From Bdellovibrionales bacterium (lineage in GTDB: Bacteria > Bdellovibrionota > Bdellovibrionia > Bdellovibrionales > UBA1609): a DNA stretch of 34,611 nucleotides. The DNA lies in contig JAHBUX010000021.1 of assembly GCA_019637855.1 (NCBI GenBank), positions 1 to 34,611 of the forward strand, written 5' to 3'. The notes below the pieces were generated by a model. That model saw nothing but the letters and a program-made list of their open reading frames with translations, was not told the origin of the DNA and did not search any database. Shown piece by piece: positions 9,075-14,186 of the stretch; within the stretch, counting starts at the first letter, position 1; every line of letters begins with the position of its first letter. Both the position numbers and the translations under genes were made by a program.

Positions 9075-10448
9075 ATGTCTGCATTTTCAGCCATCATTTT
9101 AGCCGCCGGAAAAGGAACTCGTATGAACACCCCGCTACCGAAGGTGGTGCACCCGGTGGCCGGTCGACCCATGATCGAACGTGTGCTCAAAGCCGTCAAA
9201 GGTGCAGGCGCCCGCGAGGTACGAGTTGTGGTCGGATTTGGTGAGACCTTGGTTCGGCAGATCGTTGAGCCCATGGGGGCGGTGTGCTTCAAGCAAGAGA
9301 AACAGCTGGGCACCGCCGACGCCGTTCGTTCGGCCCAACCGGATTCTCTGGATGGCGATGTGGTGATCTTGAACGGCGACCATCCGTTGATGGAAACCGC
9401 TGATATCGAGAAGTTCCGCAAAGAGTTTCGTGAGAGCAAGGCCGACATCGCCGTCGTGACCTGTGAATTGGAAGACCCCGCCTCTTTCGGCCGCGTGGTT
9501 CGTCATGGCGGAAAGTTGCGCGCCATCGTCGAGATGAAAGATGCCTCGCATGAAACGCGCAAGATCAAAGAGATCAACACCGGCATCTACGTGGTGAAAT
9601 CGCGCATTTTGAACTCTCTGTTGCCGGAAATTGAGAGCCGCAATGCTCAAGGTGAGTTTTATCTTACCGATCTGATTCAGCTAGCCGTTGACGGTGGATT
9701 CAATGTCGAAGGCTTGAAAGCCGACCCGCGCGTGGCTTTGGGTGTGAACACGCAAGTCGAGCTGGCCGAAGCGACGCGCTTAGCGTTCGCTCGCAAAGCC
9801 GCCCGCTTGCTCGAGTCCGGCGTGATGCTTTTGCAACCCGAAGCCACGTTTGTCGAAGACACCGTAGAGATTGAGCCGGCGGCGATTCTATACCCCGGGG
9901 TTTTTCTGCGGGGAGCGACCAAGATCGGTGCCTTCGCCGTGGTTGAGCCCGGTTGCGTGCTTACGGATGCGCGTGTGGGCGCGAATGTTCACTTAAAAGC
10001 CGGTTGCTACATTACAGATGCTTCGATTGGCGCGGGCTCGGATATGGGACCGTACGCGCAGCTGCGTCCCGGTACCGAAGTGGCCGAGAACTGTCACATC
10101 GGAAATTTTGTTGAAATGAAGAAAGCCAAGTTCGGCCGTGGCGCGAAGGCGGGGCACTTGAGTTATCTTGGTGACGCAGAGATCGGCGAGAACACCAACA
10201 TTGGATGCGGCACTATCACTTGCAACTACGCCGCGGACCGCAAGAAGTACGTCACCAAGATTGGTAAAGATGTTTTTGTCGGCAGTGATTCGCAGTTCGT
10301 CGCTCCCGTGTCGGTGGGCGACGGCGCGGTTATTGGCTCGGGTTCGACGATCACCAAAGACGTTCCGGCTGGCGCGTTGGCCGTGACTCGCAGCCCGCAG
10401 ATCATAAAAGAAAATTACAAACCGCGCGCTCCTGGAGAGAAAAAGTAA
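9075..10448 (+). CDS. glmU: Bifunctional GlcNAc-1-P uridyltransferase / GlcN-1-P acetyltransferase
   Basis: GlmU makes UDP-N-acetylglucosamine, the precursor of peptidoglycan and LPS, in the cytoplasm. The 457-residue length is typical. The N-terminal pyrophosphorylase domain starts with LAAGKGTRM and has QLGTADAV and NGDHPL. The C-terminal half is a left-handed beta-helix of hexapeptide repeats with GPYAQLRPGTEV, NFVEMKKA, GHLSYLGDAEIG and GCGTITCNYA, which hold the acetyl-CoA and substrate sites. Its TAA stop shares one base with the glmS start (TAATG), so the two steps of the pathway are translationally coupled. Confidence 0.97.
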   Translation: MSAFSAIILAAGKGTRMNTPLPKVVHPVAGRPMIERVLKAVKGAGAREVRVVVGFGETLVRQIVEPMGAVCFKQEKQLGTADAVRSAQPDSLDGDVVILNGDHPLMETADIEKFRKEFRESKADIAVVTCELEDPASFGRVVRHGGKLRAIVEMKDASHETRKIKEINTGIYVVKSRILNSLLPEIESRNAQGEFYLTDLIQLAVDGGFNVEGLKADPRVALGVNTQVELAEATRLAFARKAARLLESGVMLLQPEATFVEDTVEIEPAAILYPGVFLRGATKIGAFAVVEPGCVLTDARVGANVHLKAGCYITDASIGAGSDMGPYAQLRPGTEVAENCHIGNFVEMKKAKFGRGAKAGHLSYLGDAEIGENTNIGCGTITCNYAADRKKYVTKIGKDVFVGSDSQFVAPVSVGDGAVIGSGSTITKDVPAGALAVTRSPQIIKENYKPRAPGEKK

Positions 10449-12280
10449 TGTGCGGCATCGTCGGTTATCTTGGTCCAAAAAATCCTAAAGATGTCATCAT
10501 GACGGGCCTGAAGGCGCTTGAGTATCGTGGATACGACAGCGCCGGCGTGGCCATCTTGCATGAAGGTAAGTTCAAGCGCGTGCGGGCGGAAGGTAAGCTC
10601 GGCAATCTGAGTGAGAAACTGGCGTCGGAACCTTTTAGTGGTCACCTTGGCATCGGTCACACTCGTTGGGCCACGCACGGAAAGCCCTCCGAGCGCAATG
10701 CCCATCCTCATTCCGTGGGTTCGGTGAGTTTAGTCCACAACGGTATTATCGAAAACTATGTAGAGCTGCGCCAAGAGCTGGTGCGTGAAGGTGCGGTCTT
10801 TGAATCTGAAACCGATTCGGAATTGGTGGCCCATTTGGTGGATCGCCAGTTGGCAAAGACCCCCAATCTTCTGGATGCGGTCTTGCAAGTGTTGCCACGT
10901 TTGCAGGGCGCTTACGCAATTGTGGTGGTGAACGAAAAGCAACCCGACACGATGGTGGCTTTTAAAAATGGTCCGCCGTTGATCGTGGGTGTGGGTGATG
11001 ACGCCATGTATGTGGCTTCGGACATTCAGGCTTTGGTCAACTACACGCGCCGTATTGTGTATTTGGATGATGGTGAAGTCGTTGAAGTAAAAGGCCCTTC
11101 TTACAAAGTGTTCTCGGCCGCGGGCCAGCCTTTGCAGAAGAAAGTGAACGAAGTGAATTGGACTTCCGAGGTGGCCAACAAAGGCGGCTTCTCCCACTTC
11201 ATGCTGAAAGAGATTTTTGAACAGCCGCGCGCCGTGGCTCAAGCCATTCAGCCGCATATCAATCTGGCCAAGAATTCGGTCGAGTTGAACGGCGTTGGCT
11301 TCGATGTGAACGATGTGTTCCGCGATATTGAGCGCGTGTTTGTCGTGGCGTGCGGCACTTCTTACTACGCCGGCTTAATCGGCGAATACATGATTGAGCG
11401 TTTGGCGCGTGTGCCGGTCGAGGTGGATATCGCCAGCGAATTTCGCTATCGCCACCCGGTTTTGCCTAAGAATTCGCTTTTTATTTCCATCTCGCAAAGC
11501 GGAGAGACCGCCGATACCTTGGCTGCGGTTCGTTTGGCCAAGCAAGCTGGCGTGAAGGTGTTGAGCATCTGTAACGTACGGTCGTCTTCCATTGATCGCG
11601 AGGCTGACGGGCATCTGTACATGAACGCCGGCGCCGAAGTGGGCGTGGCGTCCACGAAAGCATTTTCTGCCACGTTGGCCTTGTTGAACCTTCTGTCGTT
11701 AGCTTTGGCTAAGGCACAGGGGCAGTCGACCATTGAAGAAGAACAGAAGCTGGTGCGCCAGCTTCTGGCGGCGCCTTCGCAAATCGAGATCTGCTTGAAC
11801 CTGGATAAGTTTTTTAAAGAAGCTGCGGATAAACTGAAGAACTACCGTGGCTTTTTGTATTTAGGTCGCGGTGTTCACTATCCGATCGCTTTGGAAGGTG
11901 CTCTGAAACTGAAAGAGCTCGCCTATATGCACGCTGAGGGCTACGCCGCCGGCGAGATGAAGCATGGGCCGTTGGCTTTGATCGATAAAGACATGGCGGT
12001 CGTCATGATGGTTCCGCATGATGAATTGTTTGAGAAGTCGCTGAGCAATTTGGAAGAAGCGAAAGCCCGCGGCGGTCAGATCATTTCGATCGGAACAGGT
12101 CATAACCCGCGCTTAGAAGAAATATCCGAACATTACTTGTCGTTGCCAGAGGTCGATTGGTTCACTCTGCCGCTGCTTGAGGTTGTACCCGTGCAACTCT
12201 TGGCGTTCCACGTGGCCTCGTCGTTGGGTCACGATGTGGATCAGCCGCGTAACTTGGCTAAATCGGTGACGGTGGAGTGA
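10448..12280 (+). CDS. glmS: Glutamine--fructose-6-phosphate aminotransferase
   Basis: GlmS makes glucosamine-6-phosphate from fructose-6-phosphate and glutamine, the first step towards UDP-GlcNAc. The 610-residue protein starts MCGIVGYLG, so Cys2 becomes the N-terminal nucleophile of the glutaminase domain (residues 2-215; RGYDSAG and THGKPSERNAHPH are conserved). Two SIS domains follow (about 290-420 and 460-590), with SISQSGETADT, GRGVHYPIALEGALKLKE and the C-terminal AKSVTVE. No glmS ribozyme leader is possible, because the gene begins on the last base of glmU. Its final codons lie in the left arm of the giant palindrome. Confidence 0.97.
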   Translation: MCGIVGYLGPKNPKDVIMTGLKALEYRGYDSAGVAILHEGKFKRVRAEGKLGNLSEKLASEPFSGHLGIGHTRWATHGKPSERNAHPHSVGSVSLVHNGIIENYVELRQELVREGAVFESETDSELVAHLVDRQLAKTPNLLDAVLQVLPRLQGAYAIVVVNEKQPDTMVAFKNGPPLIVGVGDDAMYVASDIQALVNYTRRIVYLDDGEVVEVKGPSYKVFSAAGQPLQKKVNEVNWTSEVANKGGFSHFMLKEIFEQPRAVAQAIQPHINLAKNSVELNGVGFDVNDVFRDIERVFVVACGTSYYAGLIGEYMIERLARVPVEVDIASEFRYRHPVLPKNSLFISISQSGETADTLAAVRLAKQAGVKVLSICNVRSSSIDREADGHLYMNAGAEVGVASTKAFSATLALLNLLSLALAKAQGQSTIEEEQKLVRQLLAAPSQIEICLNLDKFFKEAADKLKNYRGFLYLGRGVHYPIALEGALKLKELAYMHAEGYAAGEMKHGPLALIDKDMAVVMMVPHDELFEKSLSNLEEAKARGGQIISIGTGHNPRLEEISEHYLSLPEVDWFTLPLLEVVPVQLLAFHVASSLGHDVDQPRNLAKSVTVE

Positions 12281-12371
12281 GGAAAGGTACCAGCTTCCTT
12301 TTTGGCATGCATTGCGCCACTTCGTGGCCGCGATGCATGCCAAAAAGGAAGCTGGTACCTTTCCTCACTCC
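12274..12371. repeat. Giant near-perfect palindrome between convergent genes (possible bidirectional terminator)
   Basis: Bases 12274-12312 are perfectly complementary to 12333-12371: 39 bases per arm with no mismatch. The stem then continues with T-G, G-C, C-G and G-C pairs towards an apex GCCAC-TTC-GTGGC. The arms contain the stop codons of both glmS (12278-12280) and the convergent DciA-like gene (12365-12367). T5 lies in the left arm and A5 in the right arm, the reverse of the usual A-stem-T order of a bidirectional intrinsic terminator. Termination would therefore depend on the huge hairpin itself. Each 3' end would form the same structure in RNA, which could also protect transcripts from 3' exonucleases. 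Confidence 0.9.
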
Positions 12372-12745
12372 GAATCCAAAAACCCCTTAAACTGATCCGA
12401 TACTTGATCGGGCTGTGGGAGGCCGCGCCGGTCTAGAGTGAAGCGTATGCCTTTGACCCAATCGCGGCCGACGTGCTCGTTCACCTTCTCTTTCAGAGTC
12501 TTTTCAAAAAAGCGGATCTCTTGCATGCGGGCGGAACTTTTTACCCAAACAATCAGACGACCGCGTTCATACCCCACCGGCTCGCAATGCGTACCTAAGG
12601 TAGGCCCTACAATTTTGGTCCAAAAGCGCCAGATCTTCCAGCGCAGGAACTGATCGGACAGGGGCGACTTGCCATTTGCGAGCAAGGTCTGTAGAACCTT
12701 CGACGCAGGCAGCAATTCTCTCCGTTTCTTTTTATCATCGGCCAT
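12365..12745 (-). CDS. DUF721 / DciA-like protein
   Basis: The product is about 126 residues when started at the internal ATG at 12743-12745; an ATG at 12760 would add five residues and overlap the trmFO start. The order of conserved patches (LLANGKSPLSDQFLRWKIWRFW...VGPTLGTHCEP, then LIVWVKSSARMQEIRFF) fits the DUF721 family, which includes DciA, the loader of the replicative helicase DnaB in most bacteria. The charged tail after about residue 100 is variable in the family. It is divergent from trmFO and convergent with glmS. Its last codons sit in the palindrome. Family assignment is good; the helicase-loading role is inferred. Confidence 0.75.
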   Translation of the reverse strand: MADDKKKRRELLPASKVLQTLLANGKSPLSDQFLRWKIWRFWTKIVGPTLGTHCEPVGYERGRLIVWVKSSARMQEIRFFEKTLKEKVNEHVGRDWVKGIRFTLDRRGLPQPDQVSDQFKGFLDSE

Positions 12746-12758
12746 AGGAGTCCGTAGC

Positions 12759-14186
12759 ATGTCCCGTTTAAACCCGCAAATCTCGATTGTTGGCGGCGGC
12801 TTGGCTGGCAGCGAATGTGCCTATCAATTGGCTGAGATGGGTCACTACGTGCGCCTATATGAGATGCGTGGCACCGGAACCACCACTCCCGCACATAAAA
12901 CAGACCGGTTGGCTGAGCTTGTATGTTCAAACTCGCTGGGCTCCACTACGGACTATTCCGCACCGGGGCAATTGAAGTGGGAGGCCGAGCAGCTTGGCTC
13001 TCTAATCCTGCGTGCAGCCCGCAATGCGGCTGTACCAGCAGGTATGGCGTTGGGTGTGGATCGCGACGTGTTTGCAGCGGAAATCACTGAGACTTTGGAA
13101 AAGCATCCGCGTATTGAGATCGTGCGCGAAGTTGTGCGCTCGCTCGATGAAATTCCGCGCCCTGCGGTGATCGCCAGCGGTCCTTTGACCGACAGCGCAT
13201 TGGCCGAGAGCCTGCGCCAGCATTTTGATGGCGAGTTCATGTACTTCTTCGATGCCATCGCGCCAATCATCGACGCCGATTCGATCAACAAGTTTGTAGC
13301 CTACAAAGCCGATCGGTGGGGTAAGGGCAATCGCGACTACTACAATTGCCCGCTGAACAAAGAGCAGTATGAGAACTTAATTAACGAAATCAAAAATGCG
13401 CGCAAAATTGAGCCAAAGGAGTTCGAAAAGGACACGCCGTACTTTTCTGGCTGCATGCCTGTTGAGGCGATCGTCGAACGCGGCGATCAAACTCTGCGCT
13501 TCGGACCGATGTCGGCCAAGGGACTGCGCAATCCAATGACCAACCAGCCAGCCTATGCGGTGGTGCAGTTGCGGCAAGACAATAAAGAGGGCACGGCCTT
13601 CAATATGGTCGGCTTCCAGACCAAGATGGCCTACGGCGAGCAGGTTCGGGTGTTCCGTATGATTCCCGGCCTGGAGAATGCCGAGTTTTTGAAGTTAGGC
13701 AGTATTCATCGCAATCTATACATACAGACGCCGAAAAAACTGACTCCGGAACTGTCGTCGCAAAAAGACGATTGGTTGTTTTTCGCCGGTCAGATCACCG
13801 GTGTTGAAGGCTACTTTGATTCGACTTGCATGGGCTTGCTGGTTGCCCATTTTCTCAATGACAAGTTGAATGGCCGCCAGATTTCAAAGCCACCCCGTGA
13901 GTCCGCTTTGGGCTCTTTGCTTAACGGTATCACCGAAGACAACGAATACTTCCAACCGACCAACATCAACTTCGCCTTGTTCCCGCGGCCTGAGGGACTA
14001 ACAGGGAAGAAGAAGCGCGAACAAAAGGATTTGAAACGCAAATTACAATTGGATCGCGCCAAGAGCGCGCTGGTCGAATGGATGCGGGCGAAGGGCTTGC
14101 CCTTGAAGATCGCATGGCCGCCACCTGCGGAGGTTGGTGCTGCTGAACCGGAACCCGATAAATTGACAGAGACCTTGCATACGTAA
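12759..14186 (+). CDS. trmFO: Folate-dependent tRNA (uracil-5)-methyltransferase
   Basis: TrmFO methylates U54 in the T-loop of tRNAs using methylenetetrahydrofolate and FAD. The 475-residue protein starts MSRLNPQIS, followed by the FAD-binding VGGGLAGSECAYQLAEMG. Conserved TrmFO stretches follow: HKTDRLAELVCSNSLGS, FFDAIAPI, GFQTKMAYGEQ and FAGQITGVEGYFDS. I chose the ATG at 12759 because AGGAG lies eight bases upstream and the FAD motif then sits at the usual distance from the start; the longer frame from 12669 overlaps the divergent gene. It ends in a charged, Pro-rich tail of about 30 residues. The next gene starts 72 bases later. Confidence 0.95.
   Translation: MSRLNPQISIVGGGLAGSECAYQLAEMGHYVRLYEMRGTGTTTPAHKTDRLAELVCSNSLGSTTDYSAPGQLKWEAEQLGSLILRAARNAAVPAGMALGVDRDVFAAEITETLEKHPRIEIVREVVRSLDEIPRPAVIASGPLTDSALAESLRQHFDGEFMYFFDAIAPIIDADSINKFVAYKADRWGKGNRDYYNCPLNKEQYENLINEIKNARKIEPKEFEKDTPYFSGCMPVEAIVERGDQTLRFGPMSAKGLRNPMTNQPAYAVVQLRQDNKEGTAFNMVGFQTKMAYGEQVRVFRMIPGLENAEFLKLGSIHRNLYIQTPKKLTPELSSQKDDWLFFAGQITGVEGYFDSTCMGLLVAHFLNDKLNGRQISKPPRESALGSLLNGITEDNEYFQPTNINFALFPRPEGLTGKKKREQKDLKRKLQLDRAKSALVEWMRAKGLPLKIAWPPPAEVGAAEPEPDKLTETLHT

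Follow-up and report, generated by a model that had tools for sequence, protein, structure and literature searches.

The 98-base palindrome that spans the ends of the convergent genes glmS and dciA is very probably a non-autonomous REPIN-like mobile element, with arms that match the terminal repeats of a RAYT-type transposase gene on contig C22; its mobility we infer from sequence comparison. The palindrome lies in the window, the whole stretch of 34,611 nucleotides of a Bdellovibrionales genome that was analysed, where the following features were assigned.

10448 to 12280, forward strand: glmS (SIS and glutamine amidotransferase domains), C-terminus VTVE, stop codon at 12278-12280 within the palindrome
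12274 to 12371, no strand assigned: whole palindromic element, 98 bases as first drawn, with the stop codons of glmS and dciA inside
about 12278 to 12367: element proper, the outermost GGAG / CTCC being part of the coding ends
12274 to 12316, forward strand: left arm, GGAGTGAGGAAAGGTACCAGCTTCCTTTTTGGCATGCATTGCG
12283 to 12301, forward strand: left copy of the family core AAAGGTACCAGCTTCCTTT (46 copies genome-wide with up to two mismatches; reversed control 0)
12317 to 12327, forward strand: apical hairpin CCA-CTTCG-TGG
12329 to 12371, reverse strand: right arm, inverted copy of the left arm
12344 to 12362, reverse strand: right copy of the family core
12365 to 12760, reverse strand: DciA-family gene, C-terminus FLDSE, stop codon at 12365-12367 within the palindrome

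The arms are 43 nt each, with 98% complementarity, and enclose a spacer of 12 nt. The outer 39 pairs are perfect and are followed by one mismatch, with TTCG at the apex. RNA of the palindrome and its flanks has a predicted minimum free energy of -96.7 kcal/mol (z = -17.7), and none of 200 shuffled sequences was equally stable. The sequence-only reading, which had described a near-perfect palindrome containing both convergent stop codons, was borne out: the longest perfect stem is 39 bp, compared with 13 bp in 100 first-order Markov versions of the window, and no other stem of 12 bp or more was found elsewhere in the window. Comparison of the window with Rfam gave no matches, and its sole match to phage records was the glmS coding end. 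When the arm was scanned against genome contigs, one match in a Flavobacteriaceae MAG was obtained and was taken as chance.

The palindrome is not unique in the genome. Its core was found 24 times in forward and 22 times in reverse orientation with up to two mismatches, and the reversed core was not found in the same genome at the same threshold. These family-1 arms mostly form inverted pairs with a spacing of 30-75 bp, although unpaired single arms occur too. We examined 19 paired palindromes, in which the perfect cases have stems of 23 to 44 bp and the centres are of several kinds, either short (TTTCCGAT) or longer (CTGGMATGC or TTGGMATGC) with an inner hairpin. Judged by open reading frames, which give approximate gene calls, a gene's stop codon lies directly at an element end in at least 10 of the 19 pairs, and six of the 19 lie between convergent genes with stop codons at both element ends. 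Hairpins of one family at convergent gene ends, for which a search had been suggested, are thus present in this genome. On sequence grounds, the other copies of the family exclude a one-off inverted duplication. All perfect stems longer than 15 bp in 400 kb of contig C1 belonged either to family 1 or to a second palindrome family, GGTAGGGCCTAACATTTCCGG, which has 37 arms genome-wide (L174-L203). Second-family sequences (AAAGGTAGGGCCTAACATTTCCGG) were seen at G000:C1:326914, 327619 and 363395, and many copies of this family are single arms.

Six matches to PF01797 (Y1_Tnp) were obtained in this genome. One is the Y1/HUH transposase gene of RAYT type on C22, which is placed exactly between inverted family-1 arms that are separated by 790 bp. 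Another, also on C22 (L053), lies between second-family arms and is that family's own RAYT gene. Repeats and transposases correspond one to one, two families with two PF01797 genes, and the same was found in G014, from another genus of the same family, and in G039, from another family of the order. The flanking-arm test identified a RAYT-like PF01797 gene above cut-off, with arms in inverted order and no GTAG head. Neither a GTAG nor a CGTC head is present in the two families, which have GGTACC (family 1) and GGTAGG (family 2), each paired within the stem. The family-1 transposase matched NCBIfam REP_Tyr_transpos with E = 3.3e-16 and 59.5 bits, below the cut-off of 80; HYH and YKYVYRNPVEAGL, predicted from sequence to be the HUH motif and the catalytic tyrosine, are visible in the protein.

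Presence and absence between species were compared in several gene neighbourhoods of three genomes of the same genus (G001-G003), and the element was absent from every orthologous site examined. The gene pair at C24:127615 is 18 bp apart and element-free in G001, and the pair at C26:33720 is 5 bp apart and element-free in G002. No palindrome was found at the same-genus sites orthologous to C3:50255, C2:18051 and C1:386228. Downstream of C2:18051, four of four genomes (this one and three relatives) have a canonical terminator (seven or more T). Because all four share it, the element must have entered C2:18051 on the near side of the terminator, directly behind the stop codon. We also considered that the element might insert into short hairpins already in place, but this need not be assumed, as the empty sites in G001 and G002 have none, despite a short palindrome in G014. 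At the glmS/dciA locus, an element-free site is visible only in this other genus.

The same-genus genomes are uninformative on the glmS/dciA site because the two genes are not adjacent in G001 and G003; in G001 mnmG lies between glmS and dciA, and G003 agrees in spacing and strands. The dciA-mnmG block (window 10448-14186) is inverted relative to glmS in this genome compared with G001. In G014 glmS and dciA are convergent neighbours as they are here, with 13 bp between their stop codons. Both stops lie inside a short palindrome, TAAGGTGC-GTG-GCACCTTA (C11, L114:605-625), which may represent either a native terminator of short length or a repeat that has decayed. The VTVE end of glmS, stop position included, is native. 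The dciA stop, in turn, probably arrived with the element and shortened DciA by a few residues, because the G001 and G003 orthologs share the Glu of FLDSE and continue for several residues beyond it. A different Y1-transposase gene was seen between mnmG and glmS in G001 (C11:26459-27000, L115); the glmS end has therefore taken insertions in several lineages. The attachment site of Tn7 is also located just behind glmS.

Palindromes paired with transposases were also found outside the genus. G014 contains a dispersed family, CGCCAAAAGGTACCTGCTTCC.., of about 30 palindromes (CGCCAAAAGGTACCTGCTTCCTTTTCCGATATGC), together with a transposase gene that has near-identical cognate arms on either side. 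Pairs 380 bp apart in G014 were rejected as gene-carrying copies, since they proved to be runs of N. Assembly gaps of this kind were seen directly at palindrome copies in G014 (L118, L119 and L236), and copy numbers in draft genomes are therefore probably underestimates. In G039, 28 arms of GGTACCCGGTTCTTTTTGCAGAA were found, one pair of which flanks a transposase gene and another of which forms a palindrome directly after the glmS stop codon. G030 carries three RAYT genes (L147, L159 and L168), each with a different inverted arm, beginning AAAGGTACCCCCTAG and AACCAAAAGGCGC in two cases and being AAAGGTGAGCCGCACCTTT in the third.

In a tree of 37 Y1 proteins, the transposases with dispersed-palindrome arms fell into one clade of ten with support 100/100; the bootstrap is not fully settled, and the inner order of the clade is unusable. 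The three G030 genes, closely flanked by their arms, are within this clade. Closely flanking inverted arms were found in nine of its ten members and mostly start GGTA or AAAGGT; two of these nine, from loci other than those named above, have inverted arms that are 90-94% alike and start GGTACC. Comparison of arms at the locus of the G003 member revealed no flanking inverted arms. Most loci of the 27 Y1 proteins outside the clade are without such arms, and a few (for example L152 and L173) have unrelated inverted repeats at a larger distance.

The two arms of one copy resemble each other more closely than the arms of different copies. Arm mismatch is 0.06 within a copy and 0.35 between copies over the 11 nt inside the core, 0.24 and 0.55 over the 4 nt outside it, and 0.66 and 0.73 at 5-8 nt outside, where 0.75 corresponds to random sequence. 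Because arms agree within copies and differ between them, the pattern suggests that each arm is renewed from its partner, through template switching or in the course of transposition. The copy at 12274-12371 is extreme: its symmetry reaches 11 nt beyond AGGTACC and includes seven more symmetric bases, GGAGTGA, than other copies. Such symmetry on both sides, the most of any copy, and the likeness of arms within copies are consistent with a local origin, by a recent inverted duplication of the glmS end or by fold-back template switching. However, the core recurs as a repeat across the genome and has an associated transposase, and G001 and G003 likewise have the Glu codon that precedes the dciA stop here, so the extra symmetry, part of which can be accounted for by two Glu codons, may be partly coincidence. 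A local origin is therefore very improbable, although fold-back copying may have perfected the arms after insertion of the mobile element. That the palindrome was created during assembly is hardly credible. Palindromes like this do disturb assemblies, and several in G014 end in N runs or at contig ends, but the copies differ in their flanks, centres and stem lengths and the same architecture recurs in independent genomes.

The palindromes might instead have been selected by the host, as a bidirectional terminator or 3′-end stabiliser that was kept or spread for ending and protecting both mRNAs. The six copies between convergent genes with both stops in the element would fit such a role, as would the extreme hairpin energy, the short G014 palindrome holding both stops of the same gene pair, and the palindrome of another family after glmS in G039. 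The T5/A5 tracts, however, lie within the stem, and only TTT follows the core on either strand; a consensus scan limited to loops of 3-8 found no terminator-like site. In addition, the copy at C2:18051 has an older terminator just downstream that is kept in three relatives, another copy lies inside an open reading frame, and the same gene pairs function in relatives that have no element. An intrinsic bidirectional terminator also places a strong hairpin between convergent genes, but the element differs in its U-tract of only three, in its dispersed near-identical sequence and in its absence from relatives. We consider selection as a terminator or stabiliser unlikely. Thus the hairpin family at convergent ends envisaged in the sequence-only reading stood, but a new class of 3′-end element did not, since a mobile element and the transposase genes cognate to it account for the family; nor did a lone duplication.

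Long perfect arms had been thought very unusual in bacterial chromosomes because SbcCD-type nucleases attack them. This premise is not simply applicable here. No match to an SbcD gene was obtained in this genome by a search that was positive in 13 of 14 control genomes, and none was obtained in the same-genus genomes or in G014. Clear SbcD matches were found in G034 and G039, and G039 also carries a similar palindrome family, so that absence of SbcCD is not required as the cause of tolerance. A palindrome as long as this one, with a spacer at its centre, falls well short of the length that causes instability in E. coli.

In the mechanism that we propose, the transposase would recognise the element when it is folded as a single strand, for instance on the lagging-strand template, and would excise or copy the element and insert it elsewhere. 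Insertion in this compact genome would be tolerated mainly at gene ends, leaving copies that abut or supply stop codons; at the present locus the glmS stop position would be native and the dciA stop element-borne. The arms of one copy would be kept alike by copying one arm from the other, and the hairpin, once transcribed, may stabilise or end both mRNAs as a side effect. A more specific model is distinctly unlikely: that this transposase clade spreads long perfect palindromes specifically into convergent stop codons, the symmetric ends supplying both stops, the hairpin replacing or insulating termination, and fold-back arm renewal also copying host bases.

From their sequences, we would file these elements as RAYT/TIRYT-associated and closest to the TIR repeats of Di Nocera et al. 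(2013; PMC3733652). The sections of that paper used here describe, as in our case, a RAYT-like gene with long inverted repeats on both sides that are unrelated to GTAG REPs (TIRYT, TIRtrons), moderately abundant dispersed families that are often dimers (here 46 arms and 19 inverted pairs), and repeats resembling a non-autonomous companion of a transposase. Arms of the GGTAC/GGTAG type are not described in those sections, and the dimers here form near-perfect stems of 23-44 bp, often with stop codons at both ends. With REPINs and RAYTs (Bertels and Rainey 2011, PMC3116915; Nunvar et al. 2010, PMC2817692) the elements share inverted doublets forming one hairpin, dispersal mostly outside genes, and a cognate RAYT that has these repeats on either side, each RAYT with one family. 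They differ in having no unpaired GTAG head, in numbering tens of copies rather than hundreds, and in a transposase that scores below the REP_Tyr_transpos cut-off. REP elements, in the portions of PMC3733652 and PMC12306157 used here, are similarly found immediately behind stop codons, for the most part between genes that are convergent or co-directional, with some inside genes and with ends that can provide a stop codon. Most REPs are near 3′ gene ends and their ends often provide the stop codon, according to the same portion of PMC3733652, and work cited in that of PMC12306157 indicates that translation in E. coli can be reduced by REPs located no more than 15 nt from a stop codon. Classical REPs measure 20-40 bp and have short stems, in contrast to the long stems found here. 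The family is new, and its stems are unusually long and perfect, with many abutting stop codons; the kind of element is already known.

These results add a further lineage to those with RAYT-linked palindromes, which are known chiefly from gammaproteobacteria; several independent arm families occur in it, and each repeat is cleanly matched to one transposase. Stems that are so long, perfect and close to stop codons offer a good natural test of how hairpins influence translation termination, the 3′ ends of mRNAs and replication, here in a genome for which the SbcD search was negative.

The copy inside a reading frame is on contig C12 (G000:C12, element at 72716), within a DNA polymerase III alpha-type ORF (L010:721-3018). 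It is read in frame as about 20 residues, KVPASFPKGGPPFGKEAGTF, and in this respect resembles the in-frame palindromic elements of Rickettsia.
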